NCBI RefSeq assembly: GCF_001593005.1
Contig: NZ_LQZQ01000002.1
Location: forward strand, 434,001-498,000
Direction: 5' to 3'
DNA: 64,000 bases
Source of the DNA: Roseivirga ehrenbergii
Lineage (GTDB): Bacteria > Bacteroidota > Bacteroidia > Cytophagales > Cyclobacteriaceae
The notes under the pieces were generated by a model that was not told where the DNA came from, did no database searches, and saw only the letters and a program-made list of their open reading frames with translations. The position numbers and the translations under genes were made by a program. Of this stretch, positions 26,982 to 41,830 are shown in pieces; within the stretch, counting starts at the first letter, position 1, and every line of letters begins with the position of its first letter.

Positions 26982-27890
26982 TTAAAATTGTTCGTCCACC
27001 AACTCTTTATTTACCATAGCGCCTGCAAGGTTTCCGCCATATACTGCAGTAGCAACAGAACGCATCATGGCTGAGTTATCACCACAAGCAAATACACCTT
27101 CAATAGTGGTTTTTTGTAAGAAGTTGACCTCTATATATCCATTTTCATTGAGCTCACATCCTAATGAAGCCGGAATGTCTGAATGCTGTGTGAATGGGAT
27201 AGCGGCATAAATACCAGTAAATGGAGCTTTATCGCCATTAGTGAAAATCACATTCTTGACGTAACCATTGTCATGCTCAATTTCGGATATCTCAGCTTCT
27301 ATGATTTTTATATTATGCTGCTTAAATTTTTCTCTTTGTTCAGAATCAAAACTCGCCTTTTCAGAAGTTAGAATAGTAAGGTCGTCTGTCAAGTTTCTGA
27401 CCAACGAAGCTAAGTGAAAGGCACGATCTGCGTTGGCTATAATGCCAGTTTTTTGATTACGCAATTCATAACCATGGCAGTATGGGCAGTGGACCATAGA
27501 AATCCCCCAAGATTCAGCAAATCCCTTAATTTCGGGTATGGTGTCTTTAATGCCTGTGGCAAAAATCAATTTCTTGGCGGTAAATTCTTTTCCCGATGCT
27601 GTGGCAATTTGAAATCCATTGTCAATTTTCTTTCCAGTTACGGCCAGATCGTTATAGAATTTAACAGTACTGTACTTCAGAACTTGAGCCTTCGCTTTTG
27701 CGCTTATTTCGGCTGGCGTTGCCCCATCTTGCGTAAGAAAATTATGTGAATGAGGTGTTTGGCGGTTGCAGGGCAAGCCACTATCAATAATTAGAACATT
27801 CCGTAAAGAGCGCCCTAATGCCATGGCGGCAGAAAGGCCAGCATAACTGCCTCCGATAATGATTACTTCAAAATGACTATTGTCTTCCAT
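26982..27890 (-). CDS. FAD-dependent thioredoxin-reductase-like oxidoreductase
   Basis: 302 residues. FAD-binding motif VIIGGSYAGLSAAMALGRSLRNVLIID, a redox Cys pair in HCPYCHGYE, an NAD(P)-domain remnant NQKTGIIANADRAFHL and the second FAD motif GVFACGDNSAM. The CPYCHGYE form is that of the TrxR-like group (relatives include the GliT dithiol oxidases and bacterial low-molecular-weight reductases) rather than the classical CATC of TrxB. It is transcribed divergently from the Fur-family regulator. The two putative operators in the shared gap may control it too. Confidence 0.9.
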   Translation of the reverse strand: MEDNSHFEVIIIGGSYAGLSAAMALGRSLRNVLIIDSGLPCNRQTPHSHNFLTQDGATPAEISAKAKAQVLKYSTVKFYNDLAVTGKKIDNGFQIATASGKEFTAKKLIFATGIKDTIPEIKGFAESWGISMVHCPYCHGYELRNQKTGIIANADRAFHLASLVRNLTDDLTILTSEKASFDSEQREKFKQHNIKIIEAEISEIEHDNGYVKNVIFTNGDKAPFTGIYAAIPFTQHSDIPASLGCELNENGYIEVNFLQKTTIEGVFACGDNSAMMRSVATAVYGGNLAGAMVNKELVDEQF

Positions 27891-27996: not shown

Positions 27997-28019
27997 TTAA
28001 TGCAACACTGTTGCGTTAA
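27997..28019. promoter_or_regulatory. Putative Fur-family operator 1 (palindrome)
   Basis: Arms TTAATGCAAC and GTTGCGTTAA surround the spacer ACT; nine of ten positions pair (one A/G difference). It lies in the divergent gap between the TrxR-like gene and the regulator gene. A possible Bacteroidota-type promoter (TTG at 28011, TAATCTTT at 28036) overlaps it, which would fit repression. Confidence 0.7.
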
Positions 28020-28051
28020 TGTGTTTTGCAAATGTATAATCTTTTTACAAA

Positions 28052-28070
28052 ATTGCAACAGTGTTGCAAT
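28052..28070. promoter_or_regulatory. Putative Fur-family operator 2 (perfect palindrome)
   Basis: ATTGCAAC-AGT-GTTGCAAT is a perfect 19-bp palindrome ending 14 bp before the start of the Fur-family gene. Autoregulation is likely. The centre is 53 bp from operator 1. Confidence 0.75.
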
Positions 28071-28084
28071 GAAATAGCTCTGAT

Positions 28085-28462
28085 TTGAAAAGAAGGAATA
28101 CCATAGCGAAAGAAGCTGTATTGTCCGCTTTGATGAATTCTAGAAAGGCAATGAGTCAAAGTGCGATTGAAAAGAAAATATCAGTGAATGCTGATAGAGC
28201 TACCATTTACAGAATATTAAATAGTTTTTGTGAAGATGGAGTAATTCATAAAATCGTAGCAGATGATGGTAAGCAGTATTTTGCATTGTGCGTAAAATGT
28301 AAAGAAGAAAATAAACTACCTGATAACCATTTCCATTTTCGCTGCACAGCTTGTGAAACCATCGAATGTCTTCCCGTGATGGTCAATTTTTCACTTCCTA
28401 AAGATTATAATGTTGAAAGGCTGAATTGTGTTCTTGTTGGAGTATGCAAGGATTGTTCTTAG
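28085..28462 (+). CDS. Fur-family metalloregulator (Zur-like candidate)
   Basis: 125 residues from a TTG start at 28085 (MKRRNTIAKEAVLSALMNSR); no ATG is available upstream. A winged-helix N-terminus (AMSQSAIEKKISVNADRATIYRILNSFCEDGVIHKI) is followed by the Fur dimerisation domain HFHFRCTACETIECLPV and the structural zinc motif CVGVCKDC. Two CxxC-type pairs (CVKC, CTAC) and the final CKDC indicate a zinc site. Seven copies of one palindrome lie nearby, two of them in its own promoter. I infer repression under metal sufficiency, most likely zinc: the regulon looks like uptake of a metal complex, and MerC-like and His-rich proteins are included. Iron (Fur) or manganese (Mur) cannot be excluded. 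Confidence 0.85.
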   Translation: MKRRNTIAKEAVLSALMNSRKAMSQSAIEKKISVNADRATIYRILNSFCEDGVIHKIVADDGKQYFALCVKCKEENKLPDNHFHFRCTACETIECLPVMVNFSLPKDYNVERLNCVLVGVCKDCS

Positions 28463-28629
28463 TGATTTAGTTTTCTATACCTGAATCCAGAAGTAGGCTA
28501 AATAAGAGTTCTATTTCGACCTCCTAGCCCTAATGCTTTGATGTTAGCTTAACTCTAATATAAATCTCAATTTTTAATCACTCTCCATAAGTCAAAAAGG
28601 TGTGTCGAAAACAGAATTGACATTTGTTT

Positions 28630-28646
28630 ATGCAACAACGTTGCAT
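28630..28646. promoter_or_regulatory. Putative Fur-family operator 3
   Basis: ATGCAAC-AAC-GTTGCAT is a perfect 17-bp palindrome, 29 bp upstream of the MerC-like start. It would control the three-gene MerC operon. Confidence 0.7.
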
Positions 28647-28674
28647 TTATTAAAATTACTCCCTAACATTGGCC

Positions 28675-29058
28675 ATGGTTAGAACAACAAAAGGCCCTTC
28701 GTTTTTAGATAATTGGGGTATAGCTATATCGCTGGTTTGCTTAATTCATTGCGCGGCCATTCCTTTCCTGTTTATTTCATCAGTAATTATAGGGGCGCAA
28801 ATGGAGTATTTGGAGAAGATGGAGTCGCCTATGTTTATACTAGCTGCAATTATTGGTTCCGTATCTATTTTTCATACCTACTTCAATTTGAAGAGAAGGC
28901 AAGCGGTCATTTTTTTAATGTTGGGTCTCCTGCTGATAATTGCTGGTGGTATGGTTGAAATTTTTTGGCTTGAATCCCTATTGAGGGTTCTTGGTTCCGC
29001 AATGGTAATAACGAGTCACATTATTAATAAAAAACTTCAGAAACAATCATCGGTATGA
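28675..29058 (+). CDS. MerC-domain membrane protein
   Basis: 127 residues from the ATG at 28675 (a TTG two codons upstream is also in frame). Four hydrophobic helices. The first carries ISLVCLIHCAAIPFLF, the MerC signature with a Cys-x3-Cys pair (also known in Bacteroidota MerC-domain proteins without mercury resistance). The helix FILAAIIGSVSIFHTYF and the C-terminal helix LLRVLGSAMVITSHII follow. MerC proteins transport Hg(II); in zinc-related loci a role in metal transport is plausible but unproven. It overlaps the next gene by 4 bp. Confidence 0.85.
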   Translation: MVRTTKGPSFLDNWGIAISLVCLIHCAAIPFLFISSVIIGAQMEYLEKMESPMFILAAIIGSVSIFHTYFNLKRRQAVIFLMLGLLLIIAGGMVEIFWLESLLRVLGSAMVITSHIINKKLQKQSSV

Positions 29059-29483
29059 AAACGGTACTCACTTTGGTCCTGGTTTTATTTGTAAATACAG
29101 GGCTCAATCAAAAACCAGAAGGTTGGGAAATATTTGATAAGGTGATTTTCAAACCCAAGTACTTCGAGGAAGTGGGTGCATATTTTGAAGTGCCTACTTT
29201 TAATAAGGAACTGCTAGCCTTAGAAAATAGTGAGGTGATACTTTCAGGATATTATATTCCTTTAGATTTTGACTCTATGTTTATGCTCTCTGCATTGCCT
29301 TTTAGTTCTTGTTTCTTTTGTGGAGGTGCCGGCCCTGAATCGATTGCTGAAATCCAGTTTAAAGAATTCCCAAAGCAGCTTGAACCTGATGAATTTGTAA
29401 AGATTAAAGGCCTGCTAAAATTGAATGAATTGGATATCGATCATATGAATTTTATTCTTCAAGAAGCTAAACTCATTAAGTAA
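29055..29483 (+). CDS. Exported OB-fold-like protein (DUF3299-like)
   Basis: 142 residues with a short signal peptide (MKTVLTLVLVLFVNTG). The mature part has a strand pattern like the small periplasmic OB-fold family: VILSGYYIPLDFDSMFMLSALPFSSCFFCGGAGPESIAEIQF and VKIKGLLKLNELDIDHMNFILQEAKLI. The CFFCGGAG cysteine motif resembles DUF3299-type proteins (which have a Cys pair in GxCxHVPPP-like form), so the fold is plausible and the family is tentative. It overlaps the MerC-like gene by 4 bp and the next lipoprotein starts one base after its stop, so the three form one operon. Confidence 0.7.
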   Translation: MKTVLTLVLVLFVNTGLNQKPEGWEIFDKVIFKPKYFEEVGAYFEVPTFNKELLALENSEVILSGYYIPLDFDSMFMLSALPFSSCFFCGGAGPESIAEIQFKEFPKQLEPDEFVKIKGLLKLNELDIDHMNFILQEAKLIK

Positions 29484-29484
29484 A

Positions 29485-29865
29485 ATGCAAAGCAGATTCA
29501 TTATAGGAATTTTCATTTTCGCGATTTTAAACTCATGCAAATCGGGGAATCAAGAAGATAATCAGTTACTGGAGCGTGCATATCAAAAGCAAAAGGAGGC
29601 TATTGAAATGATGGAACACTTGGAGCAGATGTTGGAACAATCAAACCACCAAAAGAAAGATAGCCTTTCTAGGATTGTTGAAGAGCTTGAAGAGGGGCTT
29701 TTTGAGATTCCAGGTTATTCACTTGAACTCTCAGGGCATGAGAGGCATGAGGGGCATGATCATGGCCACACTAAAATTGAACTTAGTGAAGAGGAGATTT
29801 ATAAAGTGCAAGAAGAGTTGGTAAATCAGCTCAACCAAATTCAACTCTTGCTCCAAAATCAATGA
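29485..29865 (+). CDS. Lipoprotein with a His-rich metal-binding-like patch
   Basis: 126 residues. Lipobox LNSC (Cys18). Residues 25-75 form a coiled coil with many Glu and Gln (YQKQKEAIEMMEHLEQMLEQSNH). Then SGHERHEGHDHGHTKIEL contains six His in twelve residues, typical of zinc-binding loops in zinc lipoproteins and CDF/ZIP proteins. The C-terminal part is again helical. It is the third gene of the MerC operon. I infer a periplasmic zinc store or chaperone. Confidence 0.75.
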   Translation: MQSRFIIGIFIFAILNSCKSGNQEDNQLLERAYQKQKEAIEMMEHLEQMLEQSNHQKKDSLSRIVEELEEGLFEIPGYSLELSGHERHEGHDHGHTKIELSEEEIYKVQEELVNQLNQIQLLLQNQ

Positions 29866-30028
29866 AAAGATTCCCCCTTGACCTTACTTTCTAAATTTTT
29901 AGGGGCGAGTAATAAATGTGCAAAACTAGAGGGTCTAACCTGGATTGCAATAACACCTATAAAACCTTGCAGATAGGGCTGACTTTAACAGAATAAATTA
30001 GCTGACCTGAGTAGATCTATTGATTAGA

Positions 30029-30913
30029 ATGAAAAAAGTATTTTTATCAACCCTCATCTTGCTGGTATTGGTGTCGTGTACCACCACCAAGCGCCTTGGT
30101 TACGTTTCAAAAATTAGTGATTGGAATCTTTCTCATCTTACCGAAGCGGAGTTAAAAATGGCTAATGATTTACTTAGCTATGGTTTAGAACATGAGGCTT
30201 TATACACTTTAATGGATACTTTAAAACCAATCAGTAGCCTTGGCTTTTCTCTATCCTACCCAATAGCTAAAGCCAGTGAAATGAAAGATGGACAAGCAAA
30301 TGTAGTTGATTTAAAAGCCGACTCAGTTAAAATGGCTTTAGAAGAGTTGAGCAGTTGGAACAAAGTATTAAAGGCACTTAGCAATGACAATCTAGAGTTT
30401 CTTTTGATTCCCTATAAACAGAGTTGGCAAGGCAAGCGAAACCTTCAAATGCTTGTTTGTAGAAAGGACTTATTTGCTAAGGTGATTTCCGAAAAGGCAA
30501 ATTTCTTTGGACAGTGGGGATTTACAGCCAATTCAGATCCGGCTACAGTTTTAACAACTATAGAATTTGAGAGTAAAAATGATCGCTATAGAGCTTATGG
30601 ATACCTATTCGGTTACCCAGATTATGCTGTTGATTTTTTTGTGGAAGCTTCTAGCGCTGAAGATGAAAGTGGTGCTTTCGTAAAGCGTGACTTCTTCAGC
30701 ATTCCTGTTAAGGCAGGTAAGAGTGGTTATTTCACTTATGCAATTCCTAAGGGCTATGTACCCACCCAAACCGATTCCGCAATCTTTTATGCTGCTTCCA
30801 CTACTTTACAATATTATGAAGTGCAGAAGAGTAATTACGGCAATTCAGAAGATGGGATAAATGCCATTAGGATGATTTCGGACTATTGGGCTCGCAGTTT
30901 ATCTAACCAATAG
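30029..30913 (+). CDS. Lipoprotein of unknown function
   Basis: 294 residues from the ATG at 30029 (MKKVFLSTLILLVLVSC); a TTG at 30020 would add three residues. The lipobox is LVSC, followed by TTTKRL. The mature part has no family I recognise: helices in 45-120 (HLTEAELKMANDLLSYGLEH) and a C-terminal beta-rich region (RAYGYLFGYPDYAVDFFVEA, KRDFFSIPVKAGKSGYFTYAIPKG). It sits between the MerC operon and the TonB-receptor promoter, with no palindrome in its own upstream gap (29866-30028), so its regulation is unclear. Confidence 0.7.
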   Translation: MKKVFLSTLILLVLVSCTTTKRLGYVSKISDWNLSHLTEAELKMANDLLSYGLEHEALYTLMDTLKPISSLGFSLSYPIAKASEMKDGQANVVDLKADSVKMALEELSSWNKVLKALSNDNLEFLLIPYKQSWQGKRNLQMLVCRKDLFAKVISEKANFFGQWGFTANSDPATVLTTIEFESKNDRYRAYGYLFGYPDYAVDFFVEASSAEDESGAFVKRDFFSIPVKAGKSGYFTYAIPKGYVPTQTDSAIFYAASTTLQYYEVQKSNYGNSEDGINAIRMISDYWARSLSNQ

Positions 30914-30950
30914 AATTAATATTCAGCCACTCTTCAATTCGTACCAAATC

Positions 30951-30975
30951 ATATTTGCAACCTTGTTGCAAATAT
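30951..30975. promoter_or_regulatory. Putative Fur-family operator 4 (strong, 25-bp perfect palindrome)
   Basis: Left arm ATATTTGCAAC, spacer CTT, and a right arm that is the exact complement: eleven pairs. It lies 88 bp before the TonB-receptor start and 38 bp (centre to centre) before operator 5. Confidence 0.8.
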
Positions 30976-30992
30976 GTGTAAATAATTCATAC

Positions 30993-31009
30993 TTGCATCG
31001 TTGTTGCAA
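30993..31009. promoter_or_regulatory. Putative Fur-family operator 5 (weak)
   Basis: TTGCATC-GTT-GTTGCAA: same core with one mismatch (GCATC in place of GCAAC). The same mismatch recurs in operator 7. Confidence 0.7.
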
Positions 31010-31062
31010 AAATGTAATAAAGGTTTGGTTTACCGCGACAGGTTAAAACTCAATTTCTATCC

Positions 31063-33396
31063 ATGAAGTCCCTCCTAATATTCTTCTTCAGCTGTATAAT
31101 GCTTTCACCTTCATTATATGCGCAATTGCCAATACTTGAGGGTATGGTTTATTCAAATGATGGGGGAGTTATTCCGGGTGCCCATGTGAGCTTAAACGAT
31201 AGTCTATTTACTGTCTCAAGTGCTGAGGGCAAATATAGTTTTACTCAGTTACAGCCAGGGGCTTATAGGTTAAGGGCTTCGTTTATAGGTTTTAATGAAG
31301 TTCAAAAATCAATTACCATTCAAAAGTCTCAGAAACTGAAAATTGACTTAACGCTTGAGGAGTTGATTACTGAGCTAACTGAAGTTACTGTAACAGGTAA
31401 ATCAGAAGCTAGTGAATTGAAAGAGAGCGTAGCTGCAGTAGCTTTGTTAGAAGCCAAACTATTGTATTCTCAAAGCAATAATACCAGTGATGTTATTAAG
31501 CAGATTTCTGGAGTGAATGTACGCCAAACTGGCGGCTTTGGTAGTGATGCAGAGGTCTATATAAATGGCATGTCTGGCAAACAGGTCAAATTCTTTCTTG
31601 ACGGAATTCCCTTATCATATTTTGGTTCAGGTATGGGTCTCAACGTGCTTCCTGTAAACCTGATGAAGCAAATTGAGGTGTATAAAGGTGTCGTACCGGT
31701 AAACCTTGGTGCTGACGCACTGGGTGGAGCAATTAACATTGTGCCAAGGAAAGAGTACCGCAACTATTTAGATGTGGCCTATTCATACGGCTCTTTCAAT
31801 AGCCATAAACTTAATCTGAATGGGCAGCTTGTTCAACCAGACAAGGGTTTACTGGTTGGAATTAATTCCTTCTATAATCATTCAGATAATAATTACACTG
31901 TTGATATTGAGATTCCGAATGAGTTTGGAAACCCACAGCCCGCTACAGTTGAGCGCTTTCATGATAAGTATTCAAACCACCTAATTAACCTTTATGCAGG
32001 AGTTGTTGATAAAAACTGGACGGATAGGCTCATTCTTAGTCTTAGACTTTCTGGCTTAGATGATGATGTACAACATAATGCTGTAATGTCTCAGCCTTAT
32101 GGTGAGGCAGTGTATAGCGAGGCCACTACTGGCTTCTCTGTAGAATATGAAAAAGAAGAAATTCTCCCAAAAACAGGATTGAAGTGGTATGGAGGAATGA
32201 ACTTTACCAAAGGTGAATTCACAGATACTACACTCAATGCTTATACCTGGGACGGTGAAATTTATCGAAGGAGAACGGACGGAGGCGAAATTTCAACCTC
32301 TCGTAACTTGCTTGAATTAAACTCCAAAAATGCCGTCAGTCGGTTCAACATTGTTTCTGATCCATGGAATAATGGAAAAGTGATTTTTAATGTTTTCTCA
32401 TCTTGGTTTAGGCGTACAGGAGAAGATCCAATTGCAGCAGAATTCTATGGTCAGGATTTCTACCAGAATCCAACCGTGCTCATTAAAAATGCTACTGGTT
32501 TAGCCTATGAACACACTTTCTTAAACGGGATAAGTAGCTACACAGCATTAAAGCATTTTGCCTATCAGGCGGATGGATATGCCATTCAAAATTTAGAGTT
32601 TGTTCCCAATAAACAGCGTGTTTCTAATATTGGTTACTCTCAATCGTTTAGAGCTAATCTTCTCTCTAATTTTATTGCTAAAGCCTCCTATGAGTATGCC
32701 ACTCGTTTACCTGATGAATTTGAGCTTTTTGGGGACTTTACTCTCGTAAGACCCAATCCTTTTCTAAAACCCGAGCAAAGCCACAATGCCAATCTAGGCC
32801 TACTTTATACGCAAGGAAAAATAAAGTTGGATATCAACGGCTTTTACCGACACACCGATAACATTATTTGGTTAAGGACATCACAGTTTTTTGCCCAATA
32901 TCAAAACCTTCTTGAAGCCTCGGTAAAGGGGTTCGATGTTGACTTAAGTTTTCAGGCTTTTCCTTTTCTAAGTGCTAAAGCAAACCTGACTTTTCAGGAC
33001 ATCAGAAATCGCTCTCCAAAAAGTGTGACTGGGTCAATAGATGACAAATATTTCAATGCTCGTTTACCTAACATTCCTTATTTATTCGGCAATGCCGAAG
33101 TGAAATTTTCTGAAGACAATTTTTTGGGAACAAAAAGTAAGTTCTCAGCCTGGTGGTCGGGGGCATACGTTAATGAGTTTTACCTTTTCTGGGCTGTAGA
33201 TGGCAATCGGGATTTAAAAAATGTAATTCCTAATCAGTTTATTCAAAATGCAGGAATATCATATATCTGGCCAGATAACCGCCTTTCCATTACCCTAGAA
33301 TCAACCAATATTTTCGACACTAAAGCTTACGACAACTTTAGCGTTCAGCGTCCAGGTAGGGCATTCTACCTCACTCTCAGAACTTTTATCAACTAA
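31063..33396 (+). CDS. TonB-dependent receptor of the palindrome-controlled locus
   Basis: 777 residues. Signal peptide MKSLLIFFFSCIMLSPSLYAQ, a carboxypeptidase-regulatory-like domain (LEGMVYSNDGGVIPGAHVSL and YRLRASFIGFNEVQ), a plug (NTSDVIKQISGVNVRQTGGFGSDAEVYINGMSG and VNLGADALGGAINIVPRKEY) and a barrel ending in RPGRAFYLTLRTFIN. The terminal Phe-containing strand suits BamA-type assembly. It follows two operator palindromes and is 19 bp ahead of a DUF4374 lipoprotein, the same receptor/binder pairing as XusA/XusB in Bacteroides. The substrate is therefore probably a metal-metallophore complex, in this case under a Zur-like regulator. Confidence 0.93.
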   Translation: MKSLLIFFFSCIMLSPSLYAQLPILEGMVYSNDGGVIPGAHVSLNDSLFTVSSAEGKYSFTQLQPGAYRLRASFIGFNEVQKSITIQKSQKLKIDLTLEELITELTEVTVTGKSEASELKESVAAVALLEAKLLYSQSNNTSDVIKQISGVNVRQTGGFGSDAEVYINGMSGKQVKFFLDGIPLSYFGSGMGLNVLPVNLMKQIEVYKGVVPVNLGADALGGAINIVPRKEYRNYLDVAYSYGSFNSHKLNLNGQLVQPDKGLLVGINSFYNHSDNNYTVDIEIPNEFGNPQPATVERFHDKYSNHLINLYAGVVDKNWTDRLILSLRLSGLDDDVQHNAVMSQPYGEAVYSEATTGFSVEYEKEEILPKTGLKWYGGMNFTKGEFTDTTLNAYTWDGEIYRRRTDGGEISTSRNLLELNSKNAVSRFNIVSDPWNNGKVIFNVFSSWFRRTGEDPIAAEFYGQDFYQNPTVLIKNATGLAYEHTFLNGISSYTALKHFAYQADGYAIQNLEFVPNKQRVSNIGYSQSFRANLLSNFIAKASYEYATRLPDEFELFGDFTLVRPNPFLKPEQSHNANLGLLYTQGKIKLDINGFYRHTDNIIWLRTSQFFAQYQNLLEASVKGFDVDLSFQAFPFLSAKANLTFQDIRNRSPKSVTGSIDDKYFNARLPNIPYLFGNAEVKFSEDNFLGTKSKFSAWWSGAYVNEFYLFWAVDGNRDLKNVIPNQFIQNAGISYIWPDNRLSITLESTNIFDTKAYDNFSVQRPGRAFYLTLRTFIN

Positions 33397-33415
33397 AAAT
33401 AATCAAAATCACAAG

Positions 33416-34621
33416 ATGAAAAATTTATCAAAATATTACCTGGCTAGCTTTCTACTGGCAACAGGCTTTCTATTCTCTGGCTGTTCAGATGATAACCCAG
33501 AACCAAGCGAAACTAATGAACCGATTGAAACGGGTTATGCAATTTCTACAGTTAGTGGTGCTTGGCCAGACCAGACTACTTATCTCCAATGGGCAAATGA
33601 ATTAAACTTTAGTAGTATAGATAATGAAAACGCGATAGAGCTAACAGGAAGTGCCTCTACAGTTACTTATAATGGAGCCGTTTTTGCAACTCCGCATGGA
33701 GCACCCGCCAACCTAGTTAAGTATATCATCAACAGCGATGGAATACCAGAAGAGGAAGAGCGAATTGTTGTTCCAGGAGCTAATACTTTCTCAACGCTTT
33801 ACTTTAAAAGTGAAACGGTTGCGTACGGAACAGTGGCGGGCGGAATTTCTAAACTTATCGTTTTTGATCCTTCTTCAATGAGAATTACTAGTGAAATCTC
33901 ATTATCAACCATAACGAGTCTGATACCAGAAGCGGATAGAACCTATTATTTAGATATGATTGAGAGAGATGGTAAACTTTTTATGGGGGTTCATTATGAG
34001 AACAATTTTTCACCTGTAAATGACAATGCTTATATAGCTGTTATTAACCTAAATACGAATGAAGTAGAAAAAGTAATTTCGGATGATAGAACCGGCATGT
34101 TGTTCGGTGGACCTTCTGCTAATTCAGGAATGGTAAAAGCAGCTAACGGAGATATTTACGTTCAGGCTTTAGGAACCACAAATGCTGGAGGCGCTGCCCC
34201 AAGCGGTGTTTTGCGTATAAAGGCTGGTGAAACAGAGTTTGACACCGATTACTTCTTTAACCTAGAAGAAACGGTTGGTAATATTTGCTACGGAATTTAC
34301 TACACTTCAGGAGGAAAAGCATTCACCGCAAACGTTCAGAATGAATCTGATTTTTGGGAATACGCTACAGGTGAGCCACAGTTTAAATATGTGGAAATAG
34401 ATTTAGGAGCAAAAACGAGTAGCGGTCCAGTTGCAGGTTTACCAACTACTTATGCCTCAAGAACCATGTTAATTTATGAGGCAGATGATAACACTTTGTA
34501 TTTTTCTACTGCTACCAACAATGAGAATGCAGTGTATGAGTATAATGTATCGAACAATAGCTCTTCTAAATTTTTTGGGTCAACAGGAGGCTACCTCACT
34601 GGATTTTCAAAACTAGACTAA
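33416..34621 (+). CDS. DUF4374 (XusB-like) surface lipoprotein
   Basis: 401 residues. Lipobox FSGC (Cys23) followed by SDDNPEPSE, an acidic tether typical of surface-exposed Bacteroidota lipoproteins. The mature sequence follows DUF4374: GYAISTVSGAWPDQTTYL, LFMGVHYENNFSPVNDNAYIAVINL, and the diagnostic PSGVLRIKAGETEFDTDYFFNLEETVG. The DUF4374 member XusB of Bacteroides is a beta-propeller that binds siderophores on the cell surface and works with the receptor XusA. By analogy this protein should bind the metallophore cargo of the receptor just upstream. It is directly followed by the ABC ATPase. Confidence 0.88.
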   Translation: MKNLSKYYLASFLLATGFLFSGCSDDNPEPSETNEPIETGYAISTVSGAWPDQTTYLQWANELNFSSIDNENAIELTGSASTVTYNGAVFATPHGAPANLVKYIINSDGIPEEEERIVVPGANTFSTLYFKSETVAYGTVAGGISKLIVFDPSSMRITSEISLSTITSLIPEADRTYYLDMIERDGKLFMGVHYENNFSPVNDNAYIAVINLNTNEVEKVISDDRTGMLFGGPSANSGMVKAANGDIYVQALGTTNAGGAAPSGVLRIKAGETEFDTDYFFNLEETVGNICYGIYYTSGGKAFTANVQNESDFWEYATGEPQFKYVEIDLGAKTSSGPVAGLPTTYASRTMLIYEADDNTLYFSTATNNENAVYEYNVSNNSSSKFFGSTGGYLTGFSKLD

Positions 34622-34624
34622 AGT

Positions 34625-35326
34625 ATGTTAAAGTCTGTAAACCTGACCAAGAAGTATGGCAACTTCACAGCGTTGAATGAGTTGAACCTTTCTGTTAAGG
34701 AAGGGGACATATTTTGCCTTTTAGGGGCAAATGGTGCTGGAAAATCTACCACCATCAACTTATTCCTGAATTTTATTTCTCCATCCGCTGGTTCAGCCAC
34801 CATTAATGGTTTGGATGTATCAAAACATGATAAAGAAACGAAGCAGTTGCTGTCGTACATTCCAGAAAATTTGATGCTCTACCCCAACCTGACTGGCATG
34901 GAAAATCTGGATTTTTTCTGTGGCTTAGGAAATAAAAATTACTCCAAACAGGAATTGGAAAACCTTCTTTTACAGTCGGGTTTACAGGCCGATTTTATGA
35001 ACCGAAGAGTAAGCAGCTACTCAAAAGGAATGCGTCAGAAAGTGGGAATTGCACTAGCACGAGCAAGGGAAGCTAAGGTGTTGTTACTTGACGAACCAAC
35101 TTCTGGCTTAGATCCAAAGGCGAGCAATGAATTCTCAGAACTACTGTTGGAAATGAAAGGAAATGGAGTGGCTACATTGATGGCCACTCACGACCTTTTC
35201 AGGGCCAAAGAAACAGGTACACACATAGGAATAATGAAGCAGGGCGTGCTCATTGAGCACTTCGAATCAGATGAAGTGAGCTTTCAAGACTTGGAGAAAA
35301 TGTATCTAAAACACATGCACAACTAG
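34625..35326 (+). CDS. ABC-2-type ATPase, copy 1 (NosF/NatA-like)
   Basis: 233 residues. Walker A GANGAGKST, ABC signature SKGMRQK, Walker B VLLLDEPTSGLDP and switch-His region LMATHDLF are all intact. The C-terminus (ETGTHIGIMKQGVLIEHF) matches the NatA/NosF group. It is near-identical in design to the ATPase at 38325-39026 (both contain the LLGANGAGKSTTINLFLNF and TSGLDPKASNEFSELLL stretches). The gene starts 3 bp after the DUF4374 lipoprotein and 4 bp precede the permease start, so it belongs to the same operon. Confidence 0.95.
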   Translation: MLKSVNLTKKYGNFTALNELNLSVKEGDIFCLLGANGAGKSTTINLFLNFISPSAGSATINGLDVSKHDKETKQLLSYIPENLMLYPNLTGMENLDFFCGLGNKNYSKQELENLLLQSGLQADFMNRRVSSYSKGMRQKVGIALARAREAKVLLLDEPTSGLDPKASNEFSELLLEMKGNGVATLMATHDLFRAKETGTHIGIMKQGVLIEHFESDEVSFQDLEKMYLKHMHN

Positions 35327-35330
35327 ACTT

Positions 35331-36767
35331 ATGAGTGCCTTATTGCATATTGCTAAAAAGGAAATCAGAATAGCCTTCCGTGAGCGACTGATCGTTTTTC
35401 TGGGTATAATCATTATGGTGCTGCTTGGTATTTCACTTTTTGCTGGTTTTGTATCTTACGAGCAACAAAAAGAGATAATAACGAAAACGGAAAATGATAA
35501 ACGTCAGGAGTGGCTCAATCAAGGTGATAAGCATCCGCATATAGCTGCCCACTATGGCACCTTTGCATTCAAACCTAAAACAGTACTAAGCCTATTCGAT
35601 TTTGGGCTAGATGCTTATACTGGTACATCTGTTTATTTGGAAGCACACAATCAGCATGAGTTTATGTTCAGACCTGCACAAGATCATAGTAGCATGATCA
35701 GGTTTGGTGAGTTAAGCTCTTCCTTGGTACTACAGGTTTTACTTCCATTGCTAATTATCTTTCTTTCTTTTTCTTCTTATACCAAAGAAAAAGAAAGCGG
35801 AACACTCAAGTTATTAATGAGTCAAGGGGTATCGGCTAATGCTATTACTTGGGGAAAAATCTTGGCCTATTGCATCATTCTTTTAATTATGTTGATGCCA
35901 TTTTTTGTAGGCCTAATTTTAATTGCCAATGCTACAGCTAACAACGATTCCCTGCCCGATGTAGCTAGTAGAACAGCCCTTCTTATTACCATTTATGCTA
36001 TTTATTTATTCCTGGTAATCACTATTGCAGTATGGATTTCAATGAAATCTCTGACGGGTAGGAATGCACTTTTAACACTACTTACCTTTTGGACTTTCTT
36101 TGTTATTCTGATGCCAAAAACAGTGGCCAACTTGAGCGAGAGTTTTTATCCATTGCCTTCCATGAGAGAGTTCAAGGCAGGAATTGAAGAAAGTAAACTG
36201 AATGGGTTAGATGGACAAACCCCGCGTTCTGTTCGCATGGCAGAATTAGAAACAGAGTATTTAGAAAAGTATAAGGTGGACTCACTGAGTCAATTGCCTT
36301 TCAATTTTGAGGGAGTAAGCATGCAAGCGGGCGAAGATTATGGGAATATGGTTTATGACCATCATTATGAAGGAATTCGGGCTATTTTCAGCAAGCAGAA
36401 TAGATTAGGAAGCATTGCTAGCATTTTCAACCCTTTCATTGCTACTCAACACCTTTCAATGTCTTTGAGTGGAACGGATTTACACACTTTCAACCATTTT
36501 GAGAACGAGGTGGAAGAGTATAGACGAATGCTTGTAAGACGAATGAATAATGATATGGCTGAAAACTCAAAGTATGGTGAGTTTTATGAGTACGCAGCAG
36601 GGGAAGAATTGTGGGAAGAGATTGACGGGTTTTATTATACGGCACCTACATTTTTTTTTGCCTTAAGGCCGTATTACTTAGAACTTTTGTCACTGTTGGC
36701 TTGGGTGGTTTTTACCATATTCTTATTGAAGAGAAGTAATAAAAAACTAAAACCAATACATGGATAA
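35331..36767 (+). CDS. ABC permease, DUF3526 family, copy 1 first subunit
   Basis: 478 residues. Transmembrane helix at 20-45 (LIVFLGIIIMVLLGISLF), then a large external domain with the family block HPHIAAHYGTFAFKPKTVLSLFDFG-DAYTG and SVYLEAHNQHEF, then several further helices (VLQVLLPLLIIFLSFSSYTKEKESGTLKLL and so on). The KEKESGTLKLL loop is the ATPase-contact motif of ABC-2 permeases. DUF3526 permeases are related to NosY. The conserved His residues in the external block suggest metal or ligand contact. The 3' end overlaps the next permease by 8 bp. Confidence 0.9.
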   Translation: MSALLHIAKKEIRIAFRERLIVFLGIIIMVLLGISLFAGFVSYEQQKEIITKTENDKRQEWLNQGDKHPHIAAHYGTFAFKPKTVLSLFDFGLDAYTGTSVYLEAHNQHEFMFRPAQDHSSMIRFGELSSSLVLQVLLPLLIIFLSFSSYTKEKESGTLKLLMSQGVSANAITWGKILAYCIILLIMLMPFFVGLILIANATANNDSLPDVASRTALLITIYAIYLFLVITIAVWISMKSLTGRNALLTLLTFWTFFVILMPKTVANLSESFYPLPSMREFKAGIEESKLNGLDGQTPRSVRMAELETEYLEKYKVDSLSQLPFNFEGVSMQAGEDYGNMVYDHHYEGIRAIFSKQNRLGSIASIFNPFIATQHLSMSLSGTDLHTFNHFENEVEEYRRMLVRRMNNDMAENSKYGEFYEYAAGEELWEEIDGFYYTAPTFFFALRPYYLELLSLLAWVVFTIFLLKRSNKKLKPIHG

Positions 36768-38205
36768 CAGGGTGAAAACACTTATTCGTTACGAATGGAA
36801 GTCGTTTATACGCAACAAATTTCAGCTTTTGCTTTTGTGTATCACATTCGGTTTTGGAATTTATGGGATTTACTATGGTAATGCTGAAATCGAAGCCCAG
36901 CGAGAGACCATAAGAATAGTTACAGCTTTAGAAGAAAGCGAATTTGCTCAGTACAGGGCCAGCTTTGACAATACAAACTCCTCACCTGACCTAGAACAGA
37001 TTCATGACATCGCTGCCCAACCTTCCTTTGCCTGGTTTAGGCATGGTTACCATGCCATTATTCACCCTCATGATTACGCCTCTTTGGCTATAGGCCAAAG
37101 AGATTTGTTTCGATACTACTATAGACTTACAGGTATGAGTCTACATTATCAGTTATTTGAAAATGAATTGGCTAACCCTGTGAACTTGATGGCGGGCAAT
37201 TTCGACCTTTCTTTTGTAATTATCTACCTGTTTCCACTCATAATCATAGCCTTTTGTTATGGGTTATTTTCTTCTGAAAAGGAGAACGGAACTTTGCCAT
37301 TGTTGCAAATACAGACTATGAGCATTCAAAAAATTACTTTGATCAGATTAGGCTTCTATTTTGTAATTATTACGGGCTTGGCCCTGCTTATTTCGTTTTT
37401 AGGCCTTCTCTATTCGGGGAACGTACTAGCACAAGGCAATTTGTTAGCCGCCTTGGTATGGCTCCTTGCTGTACTTGTCTATTGCTCTTTTTGGTTTGGG
37501 CTATTATTCCTGATTATTGGCCTTAGAAAAAACTCTGCCTTTAATGCCATTAGCGCGGCAGGCTGTTGGATTTTTCTACTTATCATTATTCCTTCGGTAC
37601 TCAATGTTTTGGTGACTGTAAAATACCCTTTGAATAGCTCCACACTTGCTGGACTTACTAGAAGAACGGGTCTTGAAAATGAAAATGATCAAGAAGAAAG
37701 TAGAGAGGTGATTAGAGAGTTTTTAGCTTATCGCCCCGATTTGGAGGGCACGGATAGTCTGATACAGAACAACTTGATGCCGAAAGCTTATGCTGCTTAT
37801 ACTACACTTAAAGGCATGGAGAGTCAGAAAGTTGTAGATGATTATAACGAACAGGTTGAAAGAAGAAGTAAGTGGACTTCGAAGTTTCATTGGCTTAGTC
37901 CATCTGTAAGTTTACAAGAGGTTTTCTCTCAGACTACCGAAACGGACTTAGCTACGTTAGTGCGTTTTCAAAATGCTTTAAGTGATTTTCATGGGGAAAT
38001 AACGGACTTCTACTTTACGAGACTGTTCTGGGATAAACCAATATTGGAGAAAGATTATGACAATTTACCCCAGTTCTCTATGCCTCAAACTGCCGACAAA
38101 TGGAGGCCAATATTAACTTCGTTGGCAGGAGTTTCACTCTATACAATTTGCTTGTTTTCCGTAGGGCTAATTCAAATGCGTAGAAGAATAGAAGGGGTTA
38201 AATAG
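36760..38205 (+). CDS. ABC permease, DUF3526 family, copy 1 second subunit
   Basis: 481 residues. N-terminal helix NKFQLLLLCITFGFGIYGIYYG, an external domain with HAIIHPHDYASLAIGQRDLFRYYYRL and LANPVNLMAGNFDLSFVIIYLFPLIIIAFCYG, and a SSEKENGTLPLLQIQTM loop that resembles the ABC-2 ATPase contact. A longer C-terminal external segment precedes the last helix (LAGVSLYTICLFSVGLI). It starts 8 bp inside the first permease, and with it probably forms a heterodimer served by the ATPase at 34625-35326. Its paralog is 40420-41820. Confidence 0.9.
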   Translation: MDNRVKTLIRYEWKSFIRNKFQLLLLCITFGFGIYGIYYGNAEIEAQRETIRIVTALEESEFAQYRASFDNTNSSPDLEQIHDIAAQPSFAWFRHGYHAIIHPHDYASLAIGQRDLFRYYYRLTGMSLHYQLFENELANPVNLMAGNFDLSFVIIYLFPLIIIAFCYGLFSSEKENGTLPLLQIQTMSIQKITLIRLGFYFVIITGLALLISFLGLLYSGNVLAQGNLLAALVWLLAVLVYCSFWFGLLFLIIGLRKNSAFNAISAAGCWIFLLIIIPSVLNVLVTVKYPLNSSTLAGLTRRTGLENENDQEESREVIREFLAYRPDLEGTDSLIQNNLMPKAYAAYTTLKGMESQKVVDDYNEQVERRSKWTSKFHWLSPSVSLQEVFSQTTETDLATLVRFQNALSDFHGEITDFYFTRLFWDKPILEKDYDNLPQFSMPQTADKWRPILTSLAGVSLYTICLFSVGLIQMRRRIEGVK

Positions 38206-38223
38206 TGTACCTTTTATATGGAG

Positions 38224-38313
38224 ATTCAGCCACTCTTCAACTTGAGCACATCTATTTATGCAACACTGTTGCATAAATGAATTAAATCATCATATTTGCA
38301 TCATTGTTGCAAA
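38224..38313. repeat. Paralogous promoter segment, copy 2
   Basis: It aligns without gaps to 30921-31010 and starts with the same 17 bases. It places operators 6 and 7 at the offsets held by operators 4 and 5. Confidence 0.85.
38254..38278. promoter_or_regulatory. Putative Fur-family operator 6 (strong, 25-bp perfect palindrome)
   Basis: Left arm ATTTATGCAAC, spacer ACT, and a right arm that is the exact complement. It lies 47 bp before the second ABC ATPase start and 38 bp before operator 7, centre to centre. Confidence 0.8.
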
Positions 38314-38314
38314 T
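38294..38314. promoter_or_regulatory. Putative Fur-family operator 7 (weak)
   Basis: ATTTGCATC-ATT-GTTGCAAAT: one mismatch, the same GCATC as in operator 5. It ends 11 bp before the ATPase start. Confidence 0.75.
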
Positions 38315-38324
38315 GGAATAAGAT

Positions 38325-39026
38325 ATGCTACACGCTGTTAACCTTACTAAAAAATATCAGGAGAGTTTAGCGCTTGATAACCTGAACCTGTCCATTGAAC
38401 CTGGAGACATTTATTGTCTTCTAGGTGCCAATGGCGCAGGAAAGTCTACTACTATTAACCTCTTTCTTAATTTCATTGCTCCAACCAGCGGCAAGGCGAT
38501 TATCAATCAGATTGAGGTATCAAAGGATCCACAAGCAATCAAGAAACTAATTGCCTATATCCCGGAAAACTTGGTTTTATATAATGAACTCAGCGGTTTA
38601 GAAAACCTTGAGTACTTCGTTGGTCTGGCGGGTATGAAGTATCATGAAGATGAAATGGTAAATTTTCTTCAAGAAGCAGGATTGCAAGATGAAGCTTTCA
38701 AGAAAAGAGTAAAAACCTATTCTAAAGGAATGAGGCAAAAGATTGGAGTAGCAATGGCCATAGCCAAAAAGGCCAGAGTGCTATTGTTAGATGAACCGAC
38801 TTCGGGTCTGGACCCAAAAGCGAGCAATGAGTTCTCGGAATTGTTGCTTCGTTTAAGCCAACAAAACGTGGCCACGTTAATGGCTACTCACGATTTATTT
38901 AGGGCTAAAGAAACAGGTACAGACATTGGAATAATGAAGTCAGGCAAATTGGTTGAACAACTTTCTACAGAACAAATCAACCATAGCGATTTAGAAAAGC
39001 TTTATCTCAACCACATGAACAGTTGA
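38325..39026 (+). CDS. ABC-2-type ATPase, copy 2 (NosF/NatA-like)
   Basis: 233 residues, the same length as copy 1, with Walker A GANGAGKST, signature SKGMRQKIG, Walker B VLLLDEPTSGLDP and switch His LMATHDLF. The ETGTDIGIMKSGKLVEQL ending matches copy 1 nearly word for word. It starts the second module, with its own operator pair directly upstream, and is 3 bp from the permease that follows. The duplication of a whole module with its promoter points to a tandem duplication and divergence. Confidence 0.95.
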   Translation: MLHAVNLTKKYQESLALDNLNLSIEPGDIYCLLGANGAGKSTTINLFLNFIAPTSGKAIINQIEVSKDPQAIKKLIAYIPENLVLYNELSGLENLEYFVGLAGMKYHEDEMVNFLQEAGLQDEAFKKRVKTYSKGMRQKIGVAMAIAKKARVLLLDEPTSGLDPKASNEFSELLLRLSQQNVATLMATHDLFRAKETGTDIGIMKSGKLVEQLSTEQINHSDLEKLYLNHMNS

Positions 39027-39029
39027 TCT

Positions 39030-40418
39030 ATGATTTTCCATGTAGCCAAAAAAGAGATTAAAGAGACATTCCGTTCGGGTCAGTTTAAATGGATGTTCGG
39101 TATTGTGGCAATCCTTAGCTTAGTGGCCGTTTTTATTAGCCATAAGCACTGGCAAGAGAAAAATCTTCAGCGTGAACAGGCGCAAGAACATGCTAGGGAG
39201 TTATGGTTGGCACAAGGCGCTACCAATCCGCATAATGCCGCTCATTATGGTACTTATGCCTTTAAGCCCCAGTTCCCTCTTTCACTAATTGATCCAGGAG
39301 TAGAAAAATATACTGGAATTTCGATTTTCTTAGAAGCACATAGCAGAAATGAAGCAGACAATGTAGCCGCTGCGGACCAAACTGGCCTTTCTCGTTTTGG
39401 AGATTTGACACCTGATTTTATACTGCTGTTTATCGTTCCTTTAATGATTATTGCCTTGGGCCATCATTCGATAACAAGAGAGAAGGAACAAGGTACTATT
39501 AGAATTATTAAGACCCAGGGAATTAGCAATGGACAGTTAGTTTGGGGCAAATGGTTTGGGAACTACATTCCTATTGCGCTGCTAACCACCTTTCTATTTA
39601 TTCTAGCCGCTGTATTTATTCAAGATTTTAATTGGAAATTTTTGGCAACTATGTGGCTAGTTTATCTAGTCTATTTTGCCATAATTAACGCTATTACCCT
39701 TGTAGTCTCCTCATTGACAAGTAACTCGGGTATTTCATTGGTTATGTTGCTAACCATTTGGATTGTAAGCTGTCTGGCGGTCCCAAAGATCGCCAGCAGT
39801 TATACCAATGAAAAGTATCCTTACCCCACCCGGCAAGAGTTTGAGTCTGCGGTAGCAGAAGATAAAAAGCAAGGCATAGACGGACATGACCCATGGAGTG
39901 AGGCTTCAAAGAAATTGGAACAGGAAACCCTAAAGACTTATCAGGTAAATAGGCTGGAAGATTTGCCCTTTAACTTTGATGCTTTTAGAATGCAAAAAGG
40001 AGAAGAACACGATGCTGAAATTTATTTCAAGCACAACGAAAAACTAAGAGAGGTTTACCAAGCACAATCAAAAGTTTATAAGAATCTGGCATTCCTGTCT
40101 CCTTTCTTACCTACCCGATTTATGTCCATGTCGCTGGCCAATACAGATTATGCTACACACTGGAATTTTGCAGATTTGGCCGAAAAACACCGAGTAGAAA
40201 TGCAACGCATTCTGAACGACAACTTTGCCGAAAACTCTAAGCTAGGAGAATGGAACTATAGGGCGGATGCTTCATTATTATCGGAAGTTCCTGACTTTCA
40301 ATTCGATGCTCCTAAATTCAATGAAGTAATGAGTAGTAACCAAAGCAACCTGCTTATTCTCACGGTTTGGCTACTCTTCTCCTTTGGTCTTTTGTTTTTC
40401 GTTTCAACCCGTATTTAA
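39030..40418 (+). CDS. ABC permease, DUF3526 family, copy 2 first subunit
   Basis: 462 residues. It has the same block as copy 1 (NPHNAAHYGTYAFKPQFPLSLIDPG-EKYTG and IFLEAHSRNEA), the ATPase-contact loop TREKEQGTIRIIKTQGI, and a central external domain that ends near residue 380 with WNFADLAEKHRVEM. The protein is 16 residues shorter than its paralog at 35331-36767. The external loops differ most, which suggests different substrates. Confidence 0.9.
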   Translation: MIFHVAKKEIKETFRSGQFKWMFGIVAILSLVAVFISHKHWQEKNLQREQAQEHARELWLAQGATNPHNAAHYGTYAFKPQFPLSLIDPGVEKYTGISIFLEAHSRNEADNVAAADQTGLSRFGDLTPDFILLFIVPLMIIALGHHSITREKEQGTIRIIKTQGISNGQLVWGKWFGNYIPIALLTTFLFILAAVFIQDFNWKFLATMWLVYLVYFAIINAITLVVSSLTSNSGISLVMLLTIWIVSCLAVPKIASSYTNEKYPYPTRQEFESAVAEDKKQGIDGHDPWSEASKKLEQETLKTYQVNRLEDLPFNFDAFRMQKGEEHDAEIYFKHNEKLREVYQAQSKVYKNLAFLSPFLPTRFMSMSLANTDYATHWNFADLAEKHRVEMQRILNDNFAENSKLGEWNYRADASLLSEVPDFQFDAPKFNEVMSSNQSNLLILTVWLLFSFGLLFFVSTRI

Positions 40419-40419
40419 A

Positions 40420-41820
40420 ATGCTTTCTCTCAATATTCTTCACGAAACAAGGCTACTCAGTCGTAATTATTGGTTTATTTCGTTGTCTATGATGCTGTTA
40501 GCGCTCTGTTTATATGCAGGCCATAATGGTATGAAACACTTTGAAAGAAGACAGCTAGATTTACAAGCAGCCATTGAGAATCAAGTTGCTAAAGAACAAG
40601 TAGTTCAAGAAGTGGCTCTCGCTTTGAGTAAAGGAGAAGAACACCCTAGTTCTTTTAGGCTTTCTCCAACCAACGTGGCAATAGCTACTGGCCGACTGGC
40701 CACTATGCCAGCTACTGAAATGAGTAAGTTGGGCATTGGCCAAAGCGACCTCTACGCTCATCAATTAAAAATAACATCCAGAGAAGATTTGGCCACCATG
40801 AGTTTCAATGAGCTCACCAATCCGGTGCAATTACTCTTTGGTAACTTCGATCTGGTCTTTGTTATTACCTACCTAGTTCCGCTTATAATTATTGCATTTT
40901 CATATAATTTGCGATCACAAGAACTCGAGTCGGGCCGGCTCAAATTGTTAGCTTCAAGCCCAATACGCACCAATTTATGGCTGTTGCAGCGGTTTATTAT
41001 CAGGTGTTGTTCATTAACAGCAATTCTAACGGTAGCACTTATTGTCACAGCGTTATGGATAGGAGTTGCGTTAAGTAGCCAATTGTTGGTTTTCTTTCTT
41101 ATTACTTATGCTTATCTGGCTTTTTGGTTTGCAATTTCCTATTTGGTTAATATTCTAGGTTCATCTTCTGCTAGAAACTCTATTTCATTGCTTTCATTTT
41201 GGATTGTGATAGTTTTAATCCTTCCGGCAGTTATAAACCAGGCAGCAAATAGTATATACCCTACACCTTCAAGGGTTTCGCTGCTAAATGAAATAAGGGA
41301 AACCAAAAAGGAGTTGAGTGAAGCACAAGATCAAGTGCTAGATGAATATTTAAGAAACCATCCTGAATTGATTAGAAATGAAGGTGAAAATGCCTTCGGA
41401 TACTGGCAGGGCTACTTTGCCAGTCAGGAAATTATGGAGAAGACCCTTGCTCCTCTGGTTGATGCATACGATCAGCAATTGGAGAAGCAACAAAAATGGA
41501 TAGATGCATGGCGCTATTTAAGCCCAGCTGTTCTATTCCAAGATGGAGCTACACAATTGGCTGGCACTTCTTCTAAAAATTACAATGAGTTTAAAGGTTA
41601 TGTAAAATCATTCAGTTTAAACTGGAGGGCACATTTCATGCCCTTTGTTTTTGACAACAAAATGCTCGATCTCGATGATCTCGATAATATTCCAGAGTTT
41701 GAATACCGCTCTTCGATTGGAGCTTCTGGTATATGGATCAATATATCTGTATTACTCATTTTATCTGTGTTAATGGCCTTGAGAGGGCTTGGGTTGGAAG
41801 GAAAGCGACAACTTTTGTAA
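40420..41820 (+). CDS. ABC permease, DUF3526 family, copy 2 second subunit
   Basis: 466 residues from the ATG at 40420, one base after the previous stop; an in-frame ATG at 40384 lies inside the preceding gene and is unlikely. It mirrors the permease at 36760-38205: LATMSFNELTNPVQLLFGNFDLVFVITYLVPLIIIAFSYN corresponds to the LANPVNLMAGNFDLSFVIIYLFPLIIIAFCYG stretch of the paralog. It contains about six helices and a long external loop. Together with the gene at 39030 it should form the membrane part of the second ABC system. Confidence 0.9.
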   Translation: MLSLNILHETRLLSRNYWFISLSMMLLALCLYAGHNGMKHFERRQLDLQAAIENQVAKEQVVQEVALALSKGEEHPSSFRLSPTNVAIATGRLATMPATEMSKLGIGQSDLYAHQLKITSREDLATMSFNELTNPVQLLFGNFDLVFVITYLVPLIIIAFSYNLRSQELESGRLKLLASSPIRTNLWLLQRFIIRCCSLTAILTVALIVTALWIGVALSSQLLVFFLITYAYLAFWFAISYLVNILGSSSARNSISLLSFWIVIVLILPAVINQAANSIYPTPSRVSLLNEIRETKKELSEAQDQVLDEYLRNHPELIRNEGENAFGYWQGYFASQEIMEKTLAPLVDAYDQQLEKQQKWIDAWRYLSPAVLFQDGATQLAGTSSKNYNEFKGYVKSFSLNWRAHFMPFVFDNKMLDLDDLDNIPEFEYRSSIGASGIWINISVLLILSVLMALRGLGLEGKRQLL

Positions 41821-41830
41821 ATGGGCTAAG

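Follow-up and report, generated by a model that had tools for sequence, protein, structure and literature searches.

Predicted Zur boxes of a zinc-starvation regulon in Roseivirga ehrenbergii and their place beside a dithiol-oxidase-like gene

A 64-kb stretch of the genome of the marine bacterium Roseivirga ehrenbergii (contig NZ_LQZQ01000002.1, positions 434,001 to 498,000; referred to here as the window, with positions counted from its first base) carries seven copies of a palindrome, TGCAACNNNGTTGCA, around a gene of the Fur family. These palindromes are predicted from sequence to be the Zur boxes of a genome-wide zinc-starvation regulon, a reading to which we give a probability of about 0.9. 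The Fur-family gene of the window is a rarer Zur-type paralog than the one found on contig C9 of the same genome, and it is rather likely that it acts as an accessory Zur, the general regulator probably being the C9 gene. The motif itself is not new, since ATGCAACnnnGTTGCAT, a 17-bp palindrome with an identical core, has been published as the predicted Zur box before znuABC-zur in two species of Desulfovibrio (Rodionov 2004; PMC545781). A first-pass annotation of the window had called the regulon unannotated, which therefore fails for the box as such; for the Bacteroidota it stands to the extent that no such box was found in open papers (RegPrecise, which may hold one, lay outside the search). 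The present work thus adds a predicted zinc regulon and its box for this part of the Bacteroidota.

The palindrome in the window, the genome and the family

The window was searched for TGCAACNNNGTTGCA with at most one mismatch, and the expectation was taken from 100 dinucleotide shuffles. Exactly seven copies were found in the 64 kb against 0.14 expected, the largest count in any shuffle being three, and all seven (starting at 28001, 28054, 28631, 30956, 30994, 38259 and 38297) fall in the region around the Fur-family gene where the first-pass annotation had placed seven palindromes. With up to three mismatches the count in the window was at chance level (32 against 29.3 expected), so that only the tight sites are meaningful and loose matching was dropped. 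The core is exact at 28054, 28631, 30956 and 38259, and each of the other three copies has a single change. With the middle three bases left uncounted, exact inverted repeats run over 28052-28070 (19 bp), 28630-28646 (17 bp), 30950-30976 (27 bp) and 38254-38278 (25 bp). Perfect palindromes of 19 to 25 bp had been claimed; exact repeats are indeed present, but that at 30950-30976 is longer than the claim allowed.

The first two copies (28001..28015 and 28054..28068) lie between a divergent oxidoreductase gene on the minus strand (26982-27890) and the Fur-family gene (28085-28462), with 110 bp separating 28001 from the start of the former and 16 bp separating 28068 from the TTG start of the latter. 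They had been described as belonging to the Fur-family gene's own promoter. They do stand in front of it, but the gap is shared, and since they lie between divergent genes they may serve the oxidoreductase as well; this dithiol-oxidase-like gene had been missed as a target. The copy at 28631..28645 precedes the MerC operon. The remaining four form two pairs with a spacing of 38 bp, 30956..30970 with 30994..31008 before the TonB receptor operon and 38259..38273 with 38297..38311 before a second ABC operon, and in both the downstream member is the one with a mismatch. The lipoprotein gene at 30029 has no box in front of it, as had been noted at the outset. Among the loci examined here, 33 pairs of boxes lie no more than 120 bp apart, exactly 38 bp in 14 and 36-40 bp in 23, and paired boxes thus tend to a fixed geometry. 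The -7 promoter element of Bacteroidetes has the form TAnnTTTG. This element overlaps the left half of the box in 14 of 63 oriented boxes against five of 63 in reverse, and lies 34-35 bp further down in seven of the 63, which gives modest support to a placement of the boxes over promoter elements.

A scan of the whole 4.24-Mb genome (G000), proposed when the palindromes were first noted, found the motif with at most one mismatch at 16 places and the control, the reversed pattern, at none. Thirteen of the copies lie in nine promoter regions that include those of zinc genes, and three lie inside genes; of the nine copies outside the window, six stand before genes and three within them. Single boxes precede a MerC gene (Pfam) with FolE (NCBIfam) (C45:589350), the gene for a 190-aa lipoprotein (C49:15794), a TonB receptor gene (C2:33793) whose best NCBIfam match is a heme receptor (1.3e-37) with ZnuD at 1.6e-30, both below cut-off, and a ZIP transporter gene (C5:51607; Pfam 1.7e-15). 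A pair of boxes 38 bp apart precedes the gene of an AztD-like lipoprotein (L018 9070-10332), which matches the zinc chaperone AztD in the Protein Data Bank (PDB) at 2.6e-15 and the NCBIfam AztD model at 2.6e-22, below cut-off. Zinc site 1 of AztD is made up of His124, His167 and His218 (PMC6689063). In the alignment, which is offset by two, His124 and His167 match histidines, and the third position has no histidine by number, a conserved one (GLHG versus GIHG) lying four positions away. At the level of sequence the likeness to AztD is clear and the zinc site is likely to be kept.

Since the genome-wide targets include AztD-like, ZIP and MerC-FolE genes, and since the same box is the predicted Zur box of Desulfovibrio (PMC545781), zinc rather than iron is the likely metal, and the metal regulon with zinc as its metal that had been proposed for the window gains accordingly. 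The two settings differ, in that the Desulfovibrio box precedes znuABC-zur whereas those of Roseivirga precede ABC-2, TonB-receptor, MerC, AztD-like, ZIP and oxidase genes, and searches of its genome detected neither ZnuA nor ABC-3. MerC and FolE adjoin behind one box (L016 7253-8355), and in one relative (G090) a single box is followed by MerC-like, FolE-like and Fur-family genes. The family of 190-200 aa lipoproteins (L017 6142-6795) and a family of 800-aa TonB receptors (L020 5794-8207) are neighbours in several relatives, both behind boxes.

A second genome of the same genus (G057) has 14 boxes against one match to the control. Eleven of these precede genes, mostly the same genes as in R. 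ehrenbergii: the orthologous MerC cluster, the ABC operon (a pair), the ZIP and AztD-like genes (the latter with a pair), the lipoprotein (a pair), the TonB receptor, the oxidoreductase and a gene at C2:704753 with an unclear start. Two of the other three lie inside open reading frames (ORFs) and one between lipoprotein-like and Ppx/GppA-like genes, so named by eye. A census of the family counted 164 exact boxes in 98 genomes, 59 of which have at least one, against three matches to the reversed control. When a match to the window regulator at 1e-10 is counted as a Zur-like hit, the 86 genomes with such a hit carry 160 of the 164 boxes, and the 12 without carry four, one inside a gene (G017), two in G091 and one in G044; the counts favour a link (p 0.004, in a test that ignores kinship). 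From 15 genomes a further 60 of the 164 exact boxes were taken, and the genes behind them were compared with a baseline of 37 ORFs from the window. The first downstream gene was a homolog of the zinc set for 38 of the 60 boxes and for two of the 37 baseline ORFs, and for 32 of 60 and none of 37 when TonB matches below 30% identity were dropped.

Several observations weigh against the zinc regulon. Box-bearing genes of related genomes had supplied the zinc reference set, and the comparison of downstream genes therefore speaks for conservation and is not fully independent. The same comparison left 22 of the 60 boxes without a downstream zinc-set gene, and 14 of these belong to a single genome (G002). 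No exact box occurs in 30 of the 86 genomes that gave a Zur-like hit, which indicates variation of the box across the family. In G015, for instance, the box at one mismatch is rarer (10) than the control (16), and G091, counted as lacking a Zur-like hit, has its two exact boxes before an oxidoreductase gene and a MerC-like gene, with a weak Fur-family match in the same genome. G002 is a fragmented genome with 20 exact boxes in all, and among its 14 with no zinc-set gene directly downstream is one (L165) where an oxidoreductase gene lies behind a spurious ORF.

The divergent dithiol-oxidase-like gene

The product of 26982..27890 (minus strand), the divergent partner of the Fur-family gene, is an FAD oxidoreductase that groups with the DepH/GliT dithiol oxidases. 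Its very best PDB match, 3fbs ('Oxidoreductase'), and 4fk1 ('Putative thioredoxin reductase', 3.2e-45) carry labels without function; named matches are DepH (4.3e-53), 4ntd (3.4e-41) and GliT (1.2e-36), the next thioredoxin reductase following at 7.8e-20. The entry 4ntd, itself labelled thioredoxin reductase in the PDB, is presumably HlmI. The CPYC motif of the Roseivirga protein aligns with DepH.

Homologs at 1e-60 number 39, in 36 of the 98 family genomes. Loci were at hand for 30, of which one with an internal stop was left unscored, and a box with at most one mismatch was found within 250 bp upstream in 22 of the remaining 29. Of the seven homologs lacking a box, two come from genomes that gave no Zur-like hit (G044 and G046). 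When seven loci chosen otherwise were added, 25 of 36 had an upstream box, compared with none of 36 in an equal stretch downstream (one of 36 at two mismatches). In L300 (G019) an oxidoreductase homolog with an internal stop has an exact box upstream. The boxes suggest a direct control of the oxidase by Zur in Bacteroidota.

A related enzyme, DnoP of Pseudomonas aeruginosa, is a dithiol oxidase of the DepH group. It renders zinc-chelating dithiols harmless, and zinc starvation induces it along a route described as not yet elucidated (PMC11317636). The enzyme of the window resembles DnoP as an FAD enzyme of the same group with a CxxC motif and a tie to zinc starvation; it differs by the Zur-type boxes in front of its gene and by having a Zur-type paralog as divergent neighbour. 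By this comparison the Roseivirga enzyme may disarm zinc-grabbing antibiotics, and a role in defence against zinc-chelating dithiols can be put forward tentatively. Just as tentatively, Zur paralog and oxidase could form a mobile module of two genes in Bacteroidota that senses the zinc starvation caused by zinc-chelating dithiol antibiotics (holomycin- or gliotoxin-like) and re-oxidises them; Zur would then act on the oxidase promoter directly. If true, the module would provide the regulatory link stated to be missing for DnoP in Pseudomonas, though in a different phylum. The gene is tied to zinc control by a promoter box that can be tested, and this bears on how bacteria notice zinc-stealing antibiotics.

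The same arrangement could be read in another way, with the window paralog as the private regulator of the dithiol oxidase only, responding through its many cysteines to thiols or dithiols and leaving the transport operons untouched. This is unlikely, although it is the alternative that fares best. Paralog and oxidase stand divergently with a box between them in R. ehrenbergii, in three other genera of the family (G037, G025 and G075) and in two Flavobacteriaceae loci, which speaks for this reading, and in all five pairs outside R. ehrenbergii one half-site reads GTCGCA (L057 1747, L058 8414, L059 8808, L217 2017 and L268 2069). Set against this, the window paralog keeps the Cys and His positions of Zur-type proteins, and for most of the scored oxidase homologs with a box the fetched locus contains no Fur-family gene.

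Candidate regulators of the predicted zinc regulon

Three Fur-family genes were found in the R. ehrenbergii genome. That of the window (28085..28462, plus strand) encodes a protein of 125 aa with a Pfam FUR match of 7.7e-8, above cut-off. A structural zinc site of four cysteines (C87, C90, C121 and C124) is nearly invariant over 11 aligned rows, and the Zur-type metal positions are kept in the alignment. In the C9 protein the ALC cysteine is the aligned counterpart of C69, and HMMER puts that cysteine on C76 of Mycobacterium tuberculosis Zur (E 1.4e-4), a residue that we take to be a metal ligand. A cysteine of the sensory site is essential in ScZur (C79) and in EcZur (C88) (PMC6103462). The CxxC sites, which had served as the ground for calling the protein Zur, are not enough by themselves, and sequence searches do not give it that name. 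It matches no solved Zur in a PDB sequence search, which returned only an unrelated chain (E 0.007), and NCBIfam returned weak Fur/Irr scores far below cut-off and no Zur match; both results belong with the points against a zinc regulon. The best PDB match of the C9 protein is M. tuberculosis Zur, with PerR and Fur close behind, and in NCBIfam the Fur and PerR models outscore the Zur model, which stays below cut-off. The attempt to name the regulator by sequence thus failed, since neither PDB nor NCBIfam separates Zur from Fur and PerR in this case.

The regulators were also placed in a tree built from 67 proteins (midpoint root, with a long-branch warning; nine of 29 Fur/PerR-type rows left out, and C9-type and outlying rows pooled as 'zur'). 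A branch with support of 100/99 splits the Fur/PerR type from the rest and leaves the window protein on the Zur-type side. The window protein and six relatives form one group (100/100) in which two Flavobacteriaceae sequences are nested among those of the family itself, and this suggests transfer between families.

The first-pass annotation held that the window gene defines the regulon. This is not borne out, and that the gene is the one Zur remains a reading of low probability. In its favour, the gene belongs to the locus and is preceded by two boxes, and in the family scan four of the five genes of its group have a box 24-31 bp upstream. By comparison only four of 37 C9-type genes have a box within 300 bp and the C9 gene of R. 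ehrenbergii has none within reach, which also counts against the C9 gene as the general regulator of the predicted zinc regulon. The same-genus genome G057, however, keeps 14 boxes although a close ortholog of the window gene is missing there, and 11 of the boxes precede mostly the same genes as in R. ehrenbergii, which argues that the boxes do not depend on the window gene. It has only two Fur-family genes, one of the Fur/PerR type and one of the Zur type that is syntenic with the C9 gene. Moreover, a close ortholog of the window gene (at least 52% identity) was found in only four of the 97 other family genomes, set against exact boxes in 59 of 98. An iron (Fur) or other-metal regulon, in which the receptor and DUF4374 protein of the window would import a siderophore, is very improbable: the receptor does resemble MxcH (NCBIfam, below cut-off) and XusB proteins of the DUF4374 family bind ferric siderophores in Bacteroides (PMC13142918), but the targets elsewhere are zinc proteins (AztD-like and ZIP, with ZigA-like COG0523 in relatives), the box stands before none of 29 Fur/PerR-type genes, and it equals the Zur box predicted in Desulfovibrio (PMC545781).

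Transporters and other genes of the locus

In the zinc regulon proposed here, a Zur-type dimer of the Fur family would bind the 15-bp inverted repeat when zinc is present and block RNA polymerase, and would release it when zinc is scarce, so that the genes are switched on. The general regulator would probably be the C9 protein; the window paralog probably reads the same box and would control itself. At the surface the TonB receptor and the DUF4374 lipoprotein would capture zinc or a zinc complex, and the ABC-2/DUF3526 transporters would move zinc inward in place of ZnuABC, helped by MerC and the His-rich lipoprotein and, from elsewhere in the genome, by ZIP, the AztD-like chaperone and FolE. 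The oxidase beside the window paralog, of DnoP/DepH type, would re-oxidise zinc-chelating dithiol compounds.

The transporters lie in the two operons behind the paired boxes, all on the plus strand. The first operon begins with a TonB-dependent receptor resembling siderophore receptors (31063..33396; Pfam Plug and barrel; NCBIfam MxcH 2.4e-161) and a DUF4374 lipoprotein of the family of XusB (33416..34621; Pfam 2.8e-11), followed by an ABC ATPase (34625..35326; NCBIfam search) and two ABC-2 permeases with DUF3526 (35331..36767 and 36760..38205; profile searches). The second has an ABC ATPase (38325..39026; Pfam search), two further ABC-2 permeases with DUF3526 (39030..40418, by a DUF3526 search, and 40396..41820, by profile searches) and a DUF5916 protein (41822..44038; Pfam 2.6e-14), probably part of the operon, which has the same place in G057 and in many permease loci. 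These four permeases are the only DUF3526 proteins found in the genome. In 14 control genomes DUF3526 was matched in one, that of Caulobacter, which is also the one without an ABC-3 match. Neither ZnuA nor ABC-3 (ZnuB) was found in R. ehrenbergii by searches that were positive in 11 and 13 of the 14 control genomes, respectively.

In Caulobacter crescentus the Zur-repressed ABC system is the ABC-2 system znuGHI beside the TonB receptor gene znuK, also repressed by Zur (PMC4176598). In the window, likewise, an ATPase and a pair of ABC-2 permeases stand next to a TonB receptor behind Zur-type boxes, the link to Caulobacter being just the presence of DUF3526 in that genome. The box sequence differs, and Roseivirga has two ABC-2 sets together with DUF4374 and DUF5916 proteins. 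The transporter, earlier described as NosFY-like, is an ABC-2 system like ZnuGHI. Because ZnuA and ABC-3 were not found, and because the only DUF3526 match among the controls is in Caulobacter, which has znuGHI and gave no ABC-3 match, the ABC-2/DUF3526 set is likely to be a stand-in for ZnuABC, which the genome seems to lack, and would carry zinc inward. A set of loci based on the permease, 80 of 251 relatives, is made up entirely of Bacteroidota or Balneolaceae, with Caulobacter outside it (one locus, L198, is the G057 locus again). Genes for MerC, FolE, COG0523, Zur-type, receptor, lipoprotein and DUF5916 proteins recur around the permease, and 75 boxes with at most one mismatch occur in 36 of the 80 loci, against two control matches.

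The pairing of receptor and DUF4374 protein resembles the xenosiderophore system XusAB of Bacteroides, in which a TonB receptor has a DUF4374 surface lipoprotein beside it; XusB binds ferric siderophores in both B. thetaiotaomicron and B. fragilis (PMC13142918). The Roseivirga pair differs in lying under zinc-type boxes and with an ABC-2 transporter. The DUF4374 protein of the window has no sequence match to solved XusB in the PDB, its best hit being unrelated (E 0.71).

The MerC operon, also on the plus strand, begins with a MerC-domain membrane protein (28669..29058; Pfam 1.7e-19) and includes a 142-aa protein with a CFFC motif (29055..29483) and a small lipoprotein with a His-rich stretch (29485..29865), for which Pfam gave no match. 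Beyond these lies the lipoprotein gene at 30029..30913 (plus strand), the counterpart of which closes the MerC cluster of G057. Between that counterpart and the His-rich lipoprotein, G057 has a COG0523 gene with a product of 398 aa (NCBIfam ZigA 1.4e-170, slightly under cut-off). The window has about 150 bp at that place (29866-30019), and a search of the rest of the genome, run without a positive control, gave no match to the COG0523 gene. An identity of the 142-aa protein with DUF3299 (ZrgE-like; PMC9817125) was considered. Pfam gave no match above chance for its family, so that the identity is not claimed and ZrgABCDE was set aside. This unnamed family (also at L098 6705-7208) recurs as the first gene behind boxes in several genomes, at five of the 60 boxes followed downstream, two of which form a pair.

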